Source: a virus
DNA length: 25,697 nt
Direction: 5' to 3' (one strand)
IMG/VR virus record: IMGVR_UViG_3300044301_003078
Location: 1-25,697 of that record
Both the position numbers and the translations under genes were made by a program. The stretch's first letter is position 1. Each line of letters starts with the position of its first letter. This document shows, piece after piece, positions 1,843 to 18,630 of the stretch. Below the pieces are notes generated by a model. The model made no database searches and was not told where the DNA came from. It was given only the letters and a program-made list of their open reading frames with translations.

Positions 1843-1887
1843 TACTGAGAGATGGGGGAAACATAGAGCCAACAACTCTTACAAATG

Positions 1888-1901
1888 CACTGGACAAGGC
1901 A
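1888..1901 (+). repeat. Left arm of inverted repeat bracketing hsp20
   Basis: The sequence CACTGGACAAGGCA matches the reverse complement of 2357-2370 at 13 of 14 positions. The two arms enclose only the hsp20 gene and its leader. Confidence 0.65.
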
Positions 1902-1935
1902 TTTAACAAATTTAAATTATTTAAGGAGATTTAAT

Positions 1936-2352
1936 ATGGGAAATTTATTATTTCAAGAAAGGTTATTACCTACAGATTTGTTGTTTCGGAACTTCTTCGA
2001 GACAGATTCATTTTTTAAATCATTTACAGACACAAAACCAAACTATCCAGTAGACATATATACTACAGAAGACGGTTTGATTTTTGATATTGCTGCAGTT
2101 GGTTTAGATAAAAGTGATATTAAGATAGAAGCTGATAGCAATTTGCTAAAAGTTTCACATGAAAAAGATTCGTCATTAGACGATGTAAATTATATACACA
2201 AAGGCATAGCTAGACGTGCTTTTAATTTAGGCTGGAAGGTTTCTCCAAAGTACAATTTGAAGAAAATAGAAGCTACACTGAACAATGGTTTACTAAGTAT
2301 ATTAGTACCAATTGTACCAGAAGCTAAACCAGTAGAAATTAAGATTAATTAA
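1936..2352 (+). CDS. hsp20: Small heat shock protein, Hsp20/alpha-crystallin
   Basis: A 138-aa ATP-independent chaperone that would bind unfolding proteins in the cytoplasm. The start at ATG 1936 is set by AAGGAG about 8 bases upstream; an in-frame ATG at 1885 lacks such a site and would add 17 atypical residues. The alpha-crystallin domain spans about residues 36-128, with the IFDIAAVGLDKSDIKI strand pair and the signature NGLLSILVP at 117-125. The C-terminal tail VEIKI fits the I-x-I motif used in oligomerisation. Length is typical of class A bacterial Hsp20. Hsp20 is a common accessory gene in marine T4-like phages. Here it stands alone with its own leader and is bracketed by an inverted repeat (1888-1901 and 2357-2370). 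Confidence 0.93.
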   Translation: MGNLLFQERLLPTDLLFRNFFETDSFFKSFTDTKPNYPVDIYTTEDGLIFDIAAVGLDKSDIKIEADSNLLKVSHEKDSSLDDVNYIHKGIARRAFNLGWKVSPKYNLKKIEATLNNGLLSILVPIVPEAKPVEIKIN

Positions 2353-11515: not shown

Positions 11516-11758
11516 ATGGAATATTTAAGTATATTAGCAATAGCTTTATCATCATTGTTAGGTTTTGTTCTTGGCTTAGGCTGTGCATATTGGTTTTACC
11601 GTAGCACCCTGAGTCAAACAAAATCAGCATTAGGAGATAAAACACTTATTGCTAGTTTATTAAGAGAAGAACTTAATAAGAAAAAGAATGGTAAATCAAA
11701 AAAGAAATACTATAATAGAAAGAATAACAGAAGCAAATCGGGTGGGAAGAAATTATAA
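11516..11758 (+). CDS. Single-span membrane protein with basic tail
   Basis: An 80-aa protein. Residues 4-28 form one membrane helix (LAIALSSLLGFVLGLGCAYW) with a GxxxGxG packing motif. Residues 53-80 are extremely basic (KKKNGKSKKKYYNRKNNRSK). This suggests a type I anchor with a cytoplasmic nucleic-acid- or lipid-binding tail. GGGAAAAG lies about 7 bases before the ATG. Its last 71 bases overlap the next gene in another frame. Confidence 0.6.
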   Translation: MEYLSILAIALSSLLGFVLGLGCAYWFYRSTLSQTKSALGDKTLIASLLREELNKKKNGKSKKKYYNRKNNRSKSGGKKL

Positions 11759-12050
11759 GCTCGAAGGTGCAGTTAATTCTTTTTTTGATTCTATAGATAC
11801 TAAAGATATCAGAAATGATTCTGTTGTTAAAACAATCGATGGTCTGATTAAGCTAATAAGTGTTAATATCAGATTAGCCAAAGGCCACGAAAACTTTGAC
11901 GTAGACGAATGGAAAGATGAAAAGAATAGTATATTTGATTTGCGAGTAAAGTACATAGCTACTAAGATTAAGAATAAACCAGATTTTAAGAGAGCTAATA
12001 AACTTTACAATAAGCATAAAAAACTTCAGGACCTTTTAAAAGGAAAATGA
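11688..12050 (+). CDS. Hypothetical helical protein, 120 aa
   Basis: I do not recognise this protein. It is helical, with alternating charged stretches, and ends in a basic tail (NKLYNKHKKLQDLLKGK). The ATG at 11688 lies 71 bases inside the previous gene; a later non-ATG start would reduce the overlap but none has a convincing ribosome binding site. It ends just before the TATTTATA element and tmRNA gene. Size and charge recall small recombination-mediator or scaffold-type phage proteins, without motif support. Confidence 0.6.
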   Translation: MVNQKRNTIIERITEANRVGRNYKLEGAVNSFFDSIDTKDIRNDSVVKTIDGLIKLISVNIRLAKGHENFDVDEWKDEKNSIFDLRVKYIATKIKNKPDFKRANKLYNKHKKLQDLLKGK

Positions 12051-12058
12051 TATTTATA
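12051..12058 (+). promoter_or_regulatory. Candidate late-type promoter before tmRNA
   Basis: TATTTATA in GATATTTATATTAG lies directly after the stop of the previous gene and three bases before the first paired base of the tmRNA acceptor piece. If used, transcription would begin close to the RNA's predicted 5' end; processing could also generate that end. Confidence 0.4.
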
Positions 12059-12120
12059 TTAGACCGCTAGTACTTGTATTAGCTGCTATTTTGGACACGG
12101 GTTCGAATCCCGTCACCTCC

Positions 12121-12141
12121 ACTAAAAGATATTTAAAGCAT
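12121..12141 (+). other. Intervening segment of the permuted tmRNA
   Basis: About 20 AT-rich bases join the discriminator A (12121) of the acceptor piece to the first G (12142) of the coding piece. In known permuted tmRNAs this segment is removed to give a two-piece RNA with CCA added to the acceptor end. Confidence 0.65.
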
Positions 12142-12202
12142 GGGGGTGTTTTTGGATTTGACAGGTAGTAAGGGTATAAGGAAGGTCGATACGCAATTAA
12201 CT

Positions 12203-12235
12203 GGCGAACAAGTTGAAATGGCAATGGCTGCGTAA
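12203..12235 (+). other. tmRNA tag-peptide reading frame
   Basis: GGC GAA CAA GTT GAA ATG GCA then ATG GCT GCG TAA encodes GEQVEMAMAA. The hydrophobic C-terminal AMAA resembles the ALAA end recognised by ClpXP and related proteases. TTAACT directly upstream fits the usual UA-containing sequence that sets the resume codon. Confidence 0.82.
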
Positions 12236-12316
12236 TACGCACCCAGACCCAACGGCAAAAAGAAGCCATGTCGTCAAAGCTTCGGAGGATTAGACAGAGG
12301 ATATAAGAATACTATT

Positions 12317-13051
12317 ATGATTGTTTTTGACAAATTATTAGGGAAGCCAAAAGATTGGAAACTTACAGAAAAAGAAATTTTACTGTTCGTTAATGGTATA
12401 ACTGAAGTAGGTCAGTTAGATGGGTTCTTTAACAGATTAATAGAAAAAAGAAATAAACCAAACTTCTCATCATGGAAGAAATATGATAAAGAAGACTTTG
12501 AAAAATTATCTACTAGAGAGCCTGGTGTTTGGAGCGAAGATGAAGATGCTGTAGATACTTATTTAGACTTCTTAGCTGATTTAAGTGATGAGGAAAAAAA
12601 GCAGTTCGAAGATAGCTTAAAGAATAAGCCTCTTACTTTAGTTGAAATGTGGGATTCATTACATCACTTAGATAGGTATCAAGTTTTTAAGAACAAGAAA
12701 GTTAAGTTCTTTGATTGGATGAATGCTTTAGATACTAGAGACTATAATTACTATTATGAAAGGATATATAATGGTGAAAGACTTTTAAGTTTCGAAAAGA
12801 TTAATGATATAAAAGAATCTAAAATTAAAGCTGCTTTTGATGAATTATTGAAGATAATAGATAATGATGTTATTAGGGTTAGTTTGTCTGAAGAGGATAA
12901 AAGCCTTGTTATAAGTTCTACTAATATTAATAGACTTGACGATATGGTAAACAAGCTCCAATCCCTTGGTGGTGTATTTTCTGAATGTGAATACCACTAC
13001 AAAAAGAAGGAGATGATAACAGTACATTATTATACATTTAGGAAATTATGA
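12317..13051 (+). CDS. Hypothetical acidic protein, 244 aa
   Basis: I do not recognise this protein. It is soluble and acidic (VWSEDEDAVDTYLDFLADLS), largely helical to about residue 170. The C-terminal region looks alpha/beta (NDVIRVSLSEEDKSLVISST, then EMITVHYYTFRKL), with strand-helix-strand order like a small RNA-recognition or ferredoxin-like fold. It starts just after the tmRNA and ends in an ATGA overlap with the membrane protein gene, so the two are coupled. Confidence 0.75.
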   Translation: MIVFDKLLGKPKDWKLTEKEILLFVNGITEVGQLDGFFNRLIEKRNKPNFSSWKKYDKEDFEKLSTREPGVWSEDEDAVDTYLDFLADLSDEEKKQFEDSLKNKPLTLVEMWDSLHHLDRYQVFKNKKVKFFDWMNALDTRDYNYYYERIYNGERLLSFEKINDIKESKIKAAFDELLKIIDNDVIRVSLSEEDKSLVISSTNINRLDDMVNKLQSLGGVFSECEYHYKKKEMITVHYYTFRKL

Positions 13052-14181
13052 AAAAAAGATTACTTCCTTTTCTGATAGCATTTTCAGCACTATCAGTATC
13101 GGCATCGGCAGCTTTCTACTCAGTATTTGGATTAAGTCATTTGTTTGCTGGAGCTTCTACTGAAGTTATTATCATGGCCGGGACCTTAGAATTTGCTAAG
13201 TTAGTATGTGCTTCATTACTATATCAGTATTGGGGTACGATTAATAAATGGCTAAGAGCTTATTTGGTATCAGCAGTTTTTATACTAATGGTTATTACTT
13301 CCGGAGGTATATATGGATTTTTATCTGGAGCATTCGAAGAGACAAATACTCAAGCCCAGTTTTTAGAGAAACAAGTTGAAATACAAACTGCTAAAAAACT
13401 TATATTTGTAGAAAAGAAAGAAGATTTAACCTTAGAAAAAACAGCTTTAGTAAAGTCAATTTCTGATTTAAGAGTTTCTTTATCAAACCCAACTCAAGTA
13501 TCTTATTATTCAGAAGATGCAGGACAGGTAATAACAACATCTTCAACTTCTGCTAGGAAAGCTTTGCAATTAGAGCTAAACAAAGCAATTGAAGAGAGAG
13601 ATAATATATCGGGGTTAATAAATGCAACAACAGATTCAATAGCATCATACGATATAAAAATATTAGACCAACAAATAGGTAATGAAACAGCAAGAGAATT
13701 GGGGCCTCTTAAATATATGGCTGAGTTAACAGGAAAACCGATGGAGCAAATTGTAAATTGGTTTATGTTGCTGATTATATTTGTATTTGACCCTTTGGCA
13801 ATAGCAATGGTCGTAGCAGCGAATATGGCTTTTGCTCAAATTAGCATAAAAAAGCCCGAAAGATTTGAATGTGACATTCCTCCGGGCCTAGAATATAACA
13901 AACCTTATAAAATAGAGGAAATAAGAGAAGCTATGGAAGATAATGTAGTAGTAACTCCAGAAACTAAAGAGAGAATAAGGTTAGAAAATGACTTAGACGA
14001 AGAGGATGAAGTTATAGAACCCCAAATTATTGAAAAAGTTATAAAATATGATGATGTTGAACTGAGAACGAAAATAGAAAGTATTGAAAAGTTCTTAAAA
14101 GACAATACTAGAAAAGATACGTATGGTCGTTGGTCTTTAAGAGGAGGTCCTGGCGACTTATATGGAGAAAAAAAAGAATAA
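13048..14181 (+). CDS. Four-span membrane protein with long coiled coil
   Basis: A 377-aa protein. Three membrane helices lie at about 5-34, 38-58 and 70-95. A periplasmic or cytoplasmic coiled-coil segment follows (about 100-225, heptad-like LEKQVEIQTAKKLIFVEKKE), then a fourth helix at about 236-263 (WFMLLIIFVFDPLAIAMVVA) and a charged C-terminal tail with a second short coiled coil (about 325-360). The tail ends in a Gly-rich GRWSLRGGPGDLYG. Large membrane proteins with this layout occur in marine T4-like phages without known function. Roles in envelope remodelling or exclusion of other phages are possible. The start is an ATGA overlap. Confidence 0.8.
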   Translation: MKKRLLPFLIAFSALSVSASAAFYSVFGLSHLFAGASTEVIIMAGTLEFAKLVCASLLYQYWGTINKWLRAYLVSAVFILMVITSGGIYGFLSGAFEETNTQAQFLEKQVEIQTAKKLIFVEKKEDLTLEKTALVKSISDLRVSLSNPTQVSYYSEDAGQVITTSSTSARKALQLELNKAIEERDNISGLINATTDSIASYDIKILDQQIGNETARELGPLKYMAELTGKPMEQIVNWFMLLIIFVFDPLAIAMVVAANMAFAQISIKKPERFECDIPPGLEYNKPYKIEEIREAMEDNVVVTPETKERIRLENDLDEEDEVIEPQIIEKVIKYDDVELRTKIESIEKFLKDNTRKDTYGRWSLRGGPGDLYGEKKE

Positions 14182-14198: not shown

Positions 14199-14810
14199 AT
14201 GGTAAGAAAAAAATCTAATAAAATCCCAAAAATTAAGGGTAGAAGTAGACAATCTAAAGTTATAATTCTAAATCAAAAACAATACGATAAAAACTGTGAA
14301 TGGGCTATAGAATATAGGAAAGGAACCAAGTGGAATCAGAACCCAGAATCTAAATATAGGTATATGGCTTGCAAAAGGTGCGGTCAAATGCAACAAGTTT
14401 CTTATGAAGCTACTTCGTGTACATGTTGGTCTTGCGTTCAGGAAATGGTAGAGCCCCCAAAAGAAACAAAATCAAGAGTTACTACTGGAAGACCGTTCGG
14501 ATGGCACTTTATGAAACAATTTGTTGATAAAGATGGCAAAGTATATCACAAAGGAGTAGAACAACCTAAATTAAAAGGTACTTTAGAACCAACCAAAGTT
14601 AAAAAGCCGAAAAGAATTCCTGCTAGGGTTAAAGATAGACTGAAGAGAGAAGCTATAACATCTATAAATAAGCTTAAGAAAGAATTATTAAAAGCTAGGT
14701 GGAAAAAAGATAAAAAAGTTATAGAAACTGAACTAAGTAAACTAAGAAAAGTAGCAAGCGGAAAATTTCCAAAAGAATATGTAGAACAGTATGGTAGTCG
14801 AAGCTCATAA
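14199..14810 (+). CDS. Zinc-ribbon protein, basic, 203 aa
   Basis: A strongly basic protein. Cysteines 58 and 61 (ACKRCGQ) and 74, 76 and 79 (SCTCWSC) form a zinc ribbon. Around it, KIKGRSRQSKVIILNQKQYD and the C-terminal Lys/Arg-rich helices (RIPARVKDRLKREAITSINK) could bind nucleic acid. Similar zinc-ribbon proteins occur in the late regions of marine T4-like phages; the function is not known to me. It overlaps the 2OG oxygenase gene by 20 bases. Confidence 0.7.
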   Translation: MVRKKSNKIPKIKGRSRQSKVIILNQKQYDKNCEWAIEYRKGTKWNQNPESKYRYMACKRCGQMQQVSYEATSCTCWSCVQEMVEPPKETKSRVTTGRPFGWHFMKQFVDKDGKVYHKGVEQPKLKGTLEPTKVKKPKRIPARVKDRLKREAITSINKLKKELLKARWKKDKKVIETELSKLRKVASGKFPKEYVEQYGSRSS

Positions 14811-15372
14811 TAGTTTTTGGGTTGTTAGAAATGTAATATCTGAAGAGCAGATATCTGATTTAATCCGTTGGTGGGAAGAACAACCCCATAAAACTACTGA
14901 TGATGGTACTCCAGAAGTTTATAAAGTTAATAAGTGGGATAATACATCTAAATTTAAACAGACAATAGATAACGAACACAGAAAAACTACTGTAGTTGGT
15001 TTAAAGCATAAAACTTTTGGTTTTTTAGAAGATATGTGGAGTAGTATTTTTCAAAGTGTGTATGGTAAGCCTTTACAACCAGAAGGTCCTACATATTTTA
15101 ATAAGTATGTTAAAGGTGGTAAGCACAAAATCCATAAAGACGTAGCTAAAGGATATAAAAATAGAAAATTAATATCTGTAATCCAACTGTCTGAGCCTTC
15201 TGACTATGAAGGTGGGTTTTTAAGAATAAAAGATACTAATGGGTACATATCTGCACCAAAAGAAAAAGGTTGTGCTGTGGTATACAAGAATGACACGTTA
15301 CACTGTCTAAGTCGAATAACATCAGGGGTTAGATATTCAATGAATGAGTGCGCAAGTGAGTATAATAATTAA
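14791..15372 (+). CDS. 2-oxoglutarate/Fe(II)-dependent oxygenase
   Basis: A 193-aa hydroxylase of the prolyl-4-hydroxylase-like class. The Fe(II) ligands would be His115 and Asp117 (HKIHKDVAK) and His171 (YKNDTLHCLS); Arg181 (GVRYS) would bind 2-oxoglutarate. The surrounding strands LISVIQLSEPSDYEGGFLRI and KGCAVVYKNDTLH fit the double-stranded beta-helix core. Such enzymes are widespread in marine T4-like phages and hydroxylate protein or nucleic-acid substrates; the target here is unknown. It overlaps the SET gene by 29 bases, a hint of a shared pathway. Confidence 0.85.
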   Translation: MVVEAHNSFWVVRNVISEEQISDLIRWWEEQPHKTTDDGTPEVYKVNKWDNTSKFKQTIDNEHRKTTVVGLKHKTFGFLEDMWSSIFQSVYGKPLQPEGPTYFNKYVKGGKHKIHKDVAKGYKNRKLISVIQLSEPSDYEGGFLRIKDTNGYISAPKEKGCAVVYKNDTLHCLSRITSGVRYSMNECASEYNN

Positions 15373-15685
15373 AAAGTCAGAAATAGAAGGTCTTGGAATT
15401 TTTCCTAAAAAGACTATTAAGGCCGGAGAGTGTATTGGGTTAGCCTATACTCTAATAGGAATGGTGAATGGTAAGTATATTGCTAAATGGACAGAAGATG
15501 CTTTGACAGATTTAGGTCAGTATCATAACCACTCATTAAAACCTACAGCAAAACCTAAAATAGTAGGTGATAGAGAAGTTTACATTTATGCTGAAGTAGA
15601 GATAGCTCCAGACATGGAAATAACTTGCAATTATAACGAATATGGTAAAATAATGAACATCGAAAAGCCAAATCCGGCTTGGTAA
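15344..15685 (+). CDS. SET-domain protein, putative methyltransferase
   Basis: A 113-aa protein with the compact SET fold pattern. EGLGIFPKKTIKAGECIG at 15-32 fits the GxGxF start. QYHNHSLKPTAKP at 59-71 fits the NHSxxPN AdoMet-binding motif. AEVEIAPDMEITCNYNEYG at 83-101 fits the GEELTYDY end with the catalytic tyrosine. Pre-SET and post-SET cysteine clusters are absent, as in the roughly 119-aa viral SET protein of chlorella virus PBCV-1. It would methylate lysine on a phage or host protein, but the substrate is unknown. The PN of the motif reads PT here, a conservative departure that leaves activity open. Confidence 0.82.
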   Translation: MSAQVSIIIKKSEIEGLGIFPKKTIKAGECIGLAYTLIGMVNGKYIAKWTEDALTDLGQYHNHSLKPTAKPKIVGDREVYIYAEVEIAPDMEITCNYNEYGKIMNIEKPNPAW

Positions 15686-16212: not shown

Positions 16213-16818
16213 ATGGGCTTATACGACGATAAAAAACAAATAGAAGAAAAAATCCCACAAGTAGTAGCGGATAATTCTAAAATGTATGATGAAATTAATT
16301 ATGCGTTAAATGTAGACGATTCTATCATATACTTAAATGGTGAAATAGATGAGTATACAGTTTCGGATATTATAGCAAAATTTAGAATTGTATTAAACAA
16401 TAGACCTGAGAATAGCAAAGACCCTATAAACTTAATTGTAGATAGTCATGGTGGCTGTGCTTATTCTATGTTTGGTATAATAGATTATATAGAATCATTA
16501 GATGTTAAAGTTAATACAATTTGTAGAGGTAGAGCTATGAGTGCTGCTGCTTTGGTATTAGCAAGTGGAACGGGTCAGAGAGTAGCTTCTAAAAGGTCTA
16601 CAATTATGTTGCACGAAGGTTCTTCTGTACAAATAGGAAAGTATTCAGATTTAAAAGTTGCTAGTAAACAAGCAGATAAAATGGAGAATATGGTTAGAAT
16701 CTTATTAGCAGAAAAGACGAAGAAAGATGCAGAATGGTGGGCGGAAAATACAAAAACAGACTTATGGCTTACTGCTGAAGAGGCTTTAGACTTAGGATTA
16801 ATAGATAGCATAGGGTAA
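16213..16818 (+). CDS. clpP: ClpP-like serine protease
   Basis: A 201-aa ClpP-family peptidase. The catalytic triad is visible: Ser110 in CRGRAMSAAALVLASG, His134 in STIMLHEGS and Asp183 in TKTDLWLTAEEALDLGLID. The oxyanion region IVDSHGG (75-81) is present. Length is close to cellular ClpP. It would form a barrel that degrades proteins delivered by a host Clp ATPase. Phage ClpP homologues occur in marine T4-like phages and may replace or supplement the capsid-maturation protease; no gp21-type protease lies in this window, so its role is open. The tag made by the tmRNA could feed such a protease, which is inference. Confidence 0.9.
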   Translation: MGLYDDKKQIEEKIPQVVADNSKMYDEINYALNVDDSIIYLNGEIDEYTVSDIIAKFRIVLNNRPENSKDPINLIVDSHGGCAYSMFGIIDYIESLDVKVNTICRGRAMSAAALVLASGTGQRVASKRSTIMLHEGSSVQIGKYSDLKVASKQADKMENMVRILLAEKTKKDAEWWAENTKTDLWLTAEEALDLGLIDSIG

Positions 16819-17579: not shown

Positions 17580-17879
17580 ATGGTTATCACTATAATAATA
17601 TTAGGAATACTTTGCTGTACATTAGGGTATTCTACTTACAATCTTCTCCGTAAAAATGAGCGAGTAGAAGACACGTTTGAAAGTATGGATAATGAACTCA
17701 TGGACTATATTGAGTTTGTTACTAAATTAGAATTAGATTTGAAAAGAGCTTTTGATAGTATGAAAAAAGCCGATAGTAAAGGTGGCTTTGAATCGGACGA
17801 TGAAGTTGGACAAACATTCAAAACTATAAAAAATATAATAGCAGAATTAGAAGAAAAATATGGCAAACAAAAGGCTTAG
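17580..17879 (+). CDS. Single-span membrane protein with coiled-coil tail
   Basis: A 99-aa protein. Residues 2-22 form one membrane helix (VITIIILGILCCTLGYSTYN), followed by a charged helical tail (YIEFVTKLELDLKRAFDSMK and IKNIIAELEEKYGKQKA). It is conserved in position directly before the late sigma gene, which it overlaps by 20 bases. Similar small proteins sit near gp55 homologues in marine T4-like phages, to my knowledge without a function. Confidence 0.7.
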   Translation: MVITIIILGILCCTLGYSTYNLLRKNERVEDTFESMDNELMDYIEFVTKLELDLKRAFDSMKKADSKGGFESDDEVGQTFKTIKNIIAELEEKYGKQKA

Positions 17880-18630
17880 CCCGGTTCAAGCGTTCTATGA
17901 AGAACTTAAAAATAAAAAAGAAGATGCTGTAGTATTAAATAAGCGAGGTAGACCTAGAAAGAGTAAAATGTACTTTACCCAAACAACCGAAGAAGCTATT
18001 GTAGCTTATAATTTGGAGTACAGCCATTCTAAAAAAGAAAGGATTTATAATGAACACATACATAAACCTCTTTTTAAGTTGGCTGAAAATATAATTAATA
18101 GATTTAGATTCTATTATATGGATGGTTCTCCTACAGACGTTAAGTATGAAGTAATTACTTTTTTACTGGAGAAATTACCAAAGTATACACAAGACAAAGG
18201 AAAAGCTTTTTCTTACTTCAGTATAGTTGCTAAAAATTATTTAATACAAAATAATAATAAAGCCTATAGAAAAATAATTACTAAAGCACCTTTGACTTTG
18301 ATAGATTTTAAAAGAAATGTAGTAAATGAAATTCAGAGAGAAGATAAAGACCAAAGGATGAGGGATTTTATGGATAGATTTATAATTCATTATGATTCTA
18401 TAGTACCAGATAAATTCCGAGGAGATAGAGATAAGAGAATTGCTTACGCTGTATTAGAATTATTTAGAACAAGAGATAATATAGAAAATTATAATAAGAA
18501 AGCCCTTTATATAATGATAAGGGAAATGACAGGGACTAAAACCCAATATATAACAAAAGTCGTAAACGAAATTAAAAAAGAATATGTAAAGCTTTATGAC
18601 TTATACGAAAAAAATAAAATAGTTTTATGA
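17860..18630 (+). CDS. 55: Late-transcription sigma factor, gp55-like
   Basis: A 256-aa protein matching the gp55-type sigma factors of marine T4-like phages. Conserved core segments are ENIINRFRFYYMDG (76-89), EVITFLLEKLPKYTQDKGKA (97-116) and FSYFSIVAKNYLIQNNNKAY (117-136), the equivalent of sigma region 2 that binds RNA polymerase and melts the -10 element. A basic N-terminus (KRGRPRKSK) precedes. gp55 lets host RNA polymerase read late promoters; T4 late promoters are TATAAATA. Here TATTTATA elements before late genes are the candidate targets. It overlaps the previous gene by 20 bases. Confidence 0.87.
   Translation: MANKRLSPVQAFYEELKNKKEDAVVLNKRGRPRKSKMYFTQTTEEAIVAYNLEYSHSKKERIYNEHIHKPLFKLAENIINRFRFYYMDGSPTDVKYEVITFLLEKLPKYTQDKGKAFSYFSIVAKNYLIQNNNKAYRKIITKAPLTLIDFKRNVVNEIQREDKDQRMRDFMDRFIIHYDSIVPDKFRGDRDKRIAYAVLELFRTRDNIENYNKKALYIMIREMTGTKTQYITKVVNEIKKEYVKLYDLYEKNKIVL

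Follow-up and report, generated by a model that had tools for sequence, protein, structure and literature searches.

A permuted tmRNA gene, very probably working as a two-piece tmRNA, in a clade of marine T4-like phages that probably infect Bacteroidota

Two-piece tmRNAs, whose genes carry the two halves in permuted order, are represented by the covariance models RF01849, RF01850 and RF01851 for the alphaproteobacterial, betaproteobacterial and cyanobacterial lineages, respectively, and their coding pieces typically have two pseudoknots, PK1 and PK2, flanking the tag (PMC3985003). Phages are also known to carry such genes. Permuted tmRNAs occur in T4-like marine phages of SAR11 and OM43, namely in Melnitz and in 17 of 47 related contigs, 53 two-piece tmRNA structures have been reported in phage genomes, and tmRNA fragments of host origin occur in prophages (PMC9004378). 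In our searches, Pelagibacter phage Mosig was recovered as an alpha-type permuted example with the tag GEDNFALAA. A headline claim of novelty for a permuted tmRNA in a phage would be too strong, because this has already been published (PMC9004378); the novelty of the gene family described here lies in its distinctness as a lineage, in the absence of PK1, in the tags and in the tRNA genes located in the spacer.

The DNA analysed here is a stretch of 25,697 nucleotides (hereafter the window) of the IMG/VR virus record IMGVR_UViG_3300044301_003078, for which an initial annotation had proposed a phage-encoded circularly permuted tmRNA, suggesting a search with permuted covariance models as a check. 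In a cmscan search of the whole window, RF04321 (tmRNA_permuted) matched positions 12062-12235 with 72.0 bits (gathering threshold 47; E = 2.9e-12) and, independently of cmscan, ARAGORN called a permuted form (tmRNA*) at 12030-12326 with the tag GEQVEMAMAA. The gene spans 12062-12283 on the plus strand, as do all the elements described below, whose coordinates were checked directly on the window sequence. The order of the halves is the one initially proposed: the T-arm/acceptor half (12062-12121) comes first, followed by 20 nt (12122-12141) and by the tag-coding half, which starts at 12142.

The acceptor piece corresponds to the 3' half of the mature tmRNA and, on the basis of the RF04321 alignment, of the element coordinates and of covariation, comprises the 5' strands of P2, the T-arm, the 3' strand of the acceptor stem and a discriminator A. 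The P2 strands (12062-12091) are GACC (12062-12065), CTTGTAT (12073-12079) and CTATTT (12086-12091), and in the window they are fully paired with GGTC (12184-12187), GTATAAG (12174-12180) and AGGTAG (12163-12168), respectively, so that the three-segment helix predicted to join the halves is complete. It is followed by the T-stem and loop ACGGG-TTCGAAT-CCCGT (12097-12113), the stem being fully paired in all seven distinct combinations found among relatives, and by CACCTCC (12114-12120), which forms with GGGGGTG (12142-12148) the anticipated 7-bp acceptor stem, its third pair being G-U. CCA is not encoded (12122-12124 reads CTA), and the 20 nt at 12122-12141 would be an intervening sequence to be removed, a reading based on the spacer lengths of relatives. 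The 5' part of the coding piece (12142-12187), recognized by the same three kinds of evidence as the acceptor piece, includes a D-like segment, TGGATTTGAC (12153-12162), between GGGGGTG and the 3' strands of P2. A 15-nt linker (12188-12202) leads to the resume codon, with which the tag reading frame begins (GEQVEMAMAA plus the stop codon TAA, 12203-12235; supported by ARAGORN and by the tags of relatives). The stop codon lies, as first noticed, in a P5-like loop, i.e., within the hairpin TGCG-TAATA-CGCA (12229-12241), where relatives carry different sequences with pairing potential (e.g., GCCTAATTAGGC and GCTTAATTTAAGC). An H-type pseudoknot (12252-12283), in which ACGGCA/TGTCGT is crossed with GAAGC/GCTTC, closes the gene, and relatives show the same fold with changed sequences. 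As for an acceptor half elsewhere that might pair better with the coding half, cmscan and ARAGORN revealed no second acceptor half in the window. The initial annotation had made no mention of the 3' pseudoknot, of the lack of PK1 or of a promoter-like box in front of the gene.

A near-identical contig is present in IMG/VR, and the gene belongs to a large family that was recovered both by a tag pattern and by a P2/T-arm pattern in which the tag was not used. The former retrieved 89 contigs from IMG/VR and the latter at least 119; among 124 fetched loci with the P2/T-arm motif, ARAGORN called a permuted tmRNA in 105 and a standard one in none, the rest being without a call. The first, narrower permuted patterns, which contained GGNTTTGAC, had found only three contigs because the spacing 3' of the acceptor varies.

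The comparison of this family with the three described bacterial groups revealed a shared general plan, i.e., the permuted order, the acceptor stem and P2 formed between the pieces, a tag with its stop codon and a pseudoknot after the tag. However, described two-piece tmRNAs have both PK1 and PK2, whereas in the phage family only the pseudoknot after the tag is present. Indeed, all 60 distinct copies have only 9-15 nt separating P2 from the resume codon (GGC), which is too short for PK1, and in the window gene the RF04321 element 3' of P2 is deleted or unpaired. The family also falls below the cut-offs of all three lineage models. With the alpha model RF01849 (cut-off 50) the window scored 25.0 bits and its relatives at most 26.2, the positive control Mosig scoring 67.6; with the beta model RF01850 and the cyano model RF01851, for which the genomes searched held no positive control, the scores were 45.6 (cut-off 84) and 44.5 (cut-off 70) bits. 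The phage family does look like a lineage distinct from the three described permuted groups.

The closest phage examples, Melnitz and Mosig, are like the family in being phage-borne, permuted, marine, T4-like and matched by RF04321, and differ from it in being of the alpha type, the family lacking PK1, having tags that end in MAA and probably infecting Bacteroidota. These phages bear on the initial statement that permuted tmRNAs are not typical of T4-like phages or of Bacteroidota: its first part is overstated in view of them (PMC9004378), while the second appears plausible, as no isolate phage in the collection has the family tmRNA at matching similarity and a permuted pattern with the same D-loop form had no matches in GTDB genomes. 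They also suggest a different history, according to which the gene would be a working tmRNA of the alphaproteobacterial type, laterally acquired from SAR11 phages (as in Melnitz) and then drifted. The occurrence of permuted tmRNAs in T4-like marine SAR11/OM43 phages (PMC9004378) is in agreement with this idea, and so is the finding that Mosig encodes a protein distantly related to that of 13048-14181. We nevertheless consider such a transfer unlikely, since Mosig passes the alpha model and the family passes neither this one nor the beta and cyano models. Moreover, the coding half shares its first 24 nt, without a mismatch, with one-piece tmRNAs of IMG/VR phages with GGGGGTGTTTTTGGATTTGACAGG 5' ends (loci L122, L131, L141 and L144), an identity to be read with the caveat that this motif was in part the basis for choosing these loci; in the loci inspected, some one-piece phage tmRNAs have a Bacteroidota-like box, resembling TAnnTTTG, upstream. 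The four one-piece tmRNAs differ from the family in the order of their halves and in having other tags, such as AKLSTLGLIRTEEVTVA. Unusually long predicted tags (GNVINKLSTIGLIRTEEVSVA, AKLSTLGLIRTEEVTVA) are found in one-piece tmRNAs of many IMG/VR phage contigs (L113, L117, L122, L131, L141 and others), and a different permuted tmRNA, with the tag GEVIEMNPVSASFLAA, was observed in the phage contig L228 (9352-9705).

Tag conservation in the set obtained with the tag pattern is biased, since that search used the tag. In the tag-independent set, tags of 10 residues include GEQVEMAMAA, GEHVEMAMAA, GAQVEMAMAA, GETVEMAMAA and GEQVYMAMAA; others, of 36-37 residues (e.g., GKQVNTTIASIFASLSAIRSLSQETIVAKEQVFAMAA), form a second class that begins and ends in the same way. 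These long tags occur in the permuted tmRNAs of L240, L241, L243, L250, L257, L275, L278, L279 and L283. All complete tags but one, which ends in MAV, terminate in MAA, and this hydrophobic-Ala-Ala end probably still directs the products to the host ClpXP. The dN/dS values of the long tags are mostly 0.4-0.9 and exceed 1 in some close pairs, which is weak evidence only. A homology between the long tags and those of one-piece phage tmRNAs is not claimed here, the uncorrected p values of 0.001-0.02 being suggestive only.

The tags also speak against another possible role, that of a decoy, in which a tmRNA-like RNA would bind SmpB or stalled ribosomes and block host rescue with no tagging at all. 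A precedent exists in mycobacteriophage DS6A, whose phage-encoded tmRNA relative consists of the tRNA-like domain only and inhibits the host tmRNA (PMC11915505, PMC4131195), and the lack of PK1 in the family might point in the same direction. However, DS6A has no tag frame, whereas in the family the frame and its stop codon are retained in every complete copy, in-frame tags of 36-37 codons keep their ends, and the 3' pseudoknot is conserved as well; a decoy would need neither the frame nor the long tags, and we regard this role as very improbable.

A promoter-like box, ATATTTATA (12050-12058), ends 3-4 nt upstream of the start of P2 and was recognized by its recurrence in relatives and by its strand bias. 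In the more general form ATATTTAT, it precedes P2 by 3-6 nt in 50 of the 60 distinct relatives; over 534 kb of family loci there are 201 copies on the coding strand versus 51 on the opposite one, and in the 70-nt stretches preceding ORFs the corresponding figures are 60 and 7. In the window, ATATTTATA is found at 1834, 10631, 12050, 19485 and 21463, all five plus-strand copies being intergenic. The pattern suggests that the ATATTTAT box is probably a phage promoter element, and a late expression of the tmRNA is possible. Within the ATATTTATA box, the core of the T4 late promoter, TATAAATA, is present as its reverse complement. For 17860-18630, a late sigma factor of the gp55 type was considered and discarded, its support being no better than E = 0.18.

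Covariation was evaluated on the 60 distinct copies, counted on motif-anchored segments because the MAFFT alignment put gaps inside P2a. The outer segment of P2 occurs as GACC/GGTC, GATC/GATC, GAAC/GTTC and AGTC/GACT, the middle one as CTTGTAT/GTATAAG, GTTATAT/ATATAAT and CTTTTAT/ATAAGAG, and the inner one as CTATTT/AGGTAG, CATTGT/ACAATG and CTCTTT/AGAGAG. When partners were dealt again 10,000 times, the observed pairing was never reached for P2a (inner; z = 9.3) and P2b (middle; z = 7.5), and was reached 41 times for P2c (outer; z = 3.0), all values being uncorrected for relatedness among the copies. In the acceptor stem (CACCTCC/GGGGGTG, CATCTCC/GGGGATG, CAGCTCC/GGGGCTG), one pair appears as C/G, T/A or G/C; here 1,665 of 10,000 shuffles reached the observed pairing, in a test that is weak with four distinct combinations only. 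The pseudoknot after the tag has likewise been kept by paired changes in most relatives (AGGAT/ATCCT, GGGAT/ATCCC, GAGGT/ACCTC, GAGAC/GTCTC, GGGC/GCCC), with a mean score of 25.0 versus 8.1 in shuffles. As the helices joining the halves have been kept by paired changes, we are dealing with a functional gene class and not with a chance fold. The genes flanking the tmRNA are conserved too, 52 loci having a relative of the 13048-14181 protein; the proteins encoded at 11688-12050 and 12317-13051 had no family matches. A chance or decaying tmRNA fragment, functionless in the phage, as the host-derived fragments of prophages (PMC9004378) might bring to mind, is strongly disfavoured and hardly credible in view of the paired changes across both halves, of the position conserved in a large clade and of the recurrent promoter-like box.

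The spacer between the two halves falls into three length classes, i.e., 16-23 nt in most relatives, followed by 68-70 nt and 89-91 nt. In L034, L246, L275 and L283 it is filled by an intact tRNA gene (Ala or Glu), with almost no other spacer sequence. A single tRNA-Ala within the spacer of a permuted tmRNA has been presented as a unique feature of a nominally archaeal genome (PMC11915505), and this gene may belong to the present phage clade. The best full-length matches of the L034 spacer tRNA-Ala are mostly in Bacteroidota plasmids. The 68-70-nt spacers of otherwise different tmRNAs (L035, L082, L080, L099 and others) have in common a double-hairpin repeat resembling ATTATATTCAATTAGATATAATA, as if it were mobile.

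Concerning the identity of the phage, the window contains T4-like baseplate genes, and, judged by a baseplate protein, the closest records belong to Microcystis phage Mel-JY01, Flavobacterium phage immuto and a huge uncultured phage; searched as close records, immuto, Mel-JY01 and two huge phages lack the permuted tmRNA of the family. The presence of immuto among the nearest isolates, the paucity of Shine-Dalgarno-like sites (seen for 12 of 48 ORFs) and the matches of the L034 tRNA-Ala suggest that the host is likely a member of Bacteroidota. The phage also encodes an Hsp20-like chaperone, a 2OG-Fe(II) oxygenase and a SET-domain protein (window 1885-2352 and 14791-15685). Among 84,980 GTDB species genomes, the tag pattern matched one contig, L111 (CALBOT010000027.1), placed in a bin of the archaeon Candidatus Nitrosopelagicus. 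This contig encodes homologues of the window proteins, and among 300 genomes of that archaeal phylum the RF04321 cut-off was exceeded only in the bin holding it; for these reasons L111 is likely a phage contig misbinned as archaeal. An archaeal origin was rejected, the sole permuted tmRNA of the phylum genomes being that of the phage-like contig itself. Misbinning of phage contigs may account for some of the tmRNA genes attributed to archaea on the basis of metagenome bins.

It had also been suggested that the phage might tag proteins for its own ClpP. A gene for a ClpP-like (S14) protease does exist at 16213-16818 on the plus strand (PF00574, 2.4e-34; PHROG head maturation protease, 6e-35), and the conserved Ser/His/Asp triad is intact; the closest phage families of this protein are annotated as head maturation protease. 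However, such a gene was found in 14 of the 30 family contigs searched and not in the tmRNA-bearing contigs of 134 and 138 kb, all of these contigs being fragments. A dedicated tag-ClpP pair is not supported, and the protease is a possible partner that is not required. Since no SmpB gene was found in the 30 family contigs (up to 138 kb, all fragments), the use of the host SmpB is assumed.

On the whole, we consider it very probable that a marine T4-like phage clade, itself probably infecting Bacteroidota, has here a functioning two-piece tmRNA gene, with the following route of processing and tagging, proposed from sequence comparison. A precursor would be started by the phage promoter at about 12062; by analogy with known two-piece tmRNAs, RNase P would cleave near 12142, and a 3' processing enzyme together with CCA addition would complete the acceptor end at 12121. 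The 7-bp acceptor stem and the three P2 segments would keep the two pieces associated, as covariation supports. Host AlaRS, SmpB and EF-Tu might then load the tmRNA onto ribosomes stalled on broken mRNA, where translation would resume at GGC 12203 and GEQVEMAMAA would be added. Most likely, the RNA would take part in ordinary trans-translation together with the SmpB, AlaRS and proteases of the host, aiding ribosome recovery in infection; the likely benefit would be that ribosome rescue, with a phage-specific tag, is kept going while phage and host mRNAs are cut. The absence of PK1 could reduce tmRNA function. We can speculate further, as a tentative idea for which we would not yet claim probability, that permuted tmRNA arose a fourth time in this family, independently and from a one-piece ancestor within Bacteroidota phages, and works here without PK1, that the phage-only tags (10 or 36-37 residues, ending in MAA) serve to change what becomes of proteins synthesized during infection, and that the tRNA genes in the spacer act as processing signals.

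These findings would add a large marine phage group to those bringing their own ribosome-rescue RNA, in a form outside the three permuted lineages described so far. With PK1 missing from many naturally conserved copies, the family offers a natural test of the purpose of this pseudoknot, and the tags, which were not found in sequenced cells, raise the question of whether phages send rescued proteins to other destinations.
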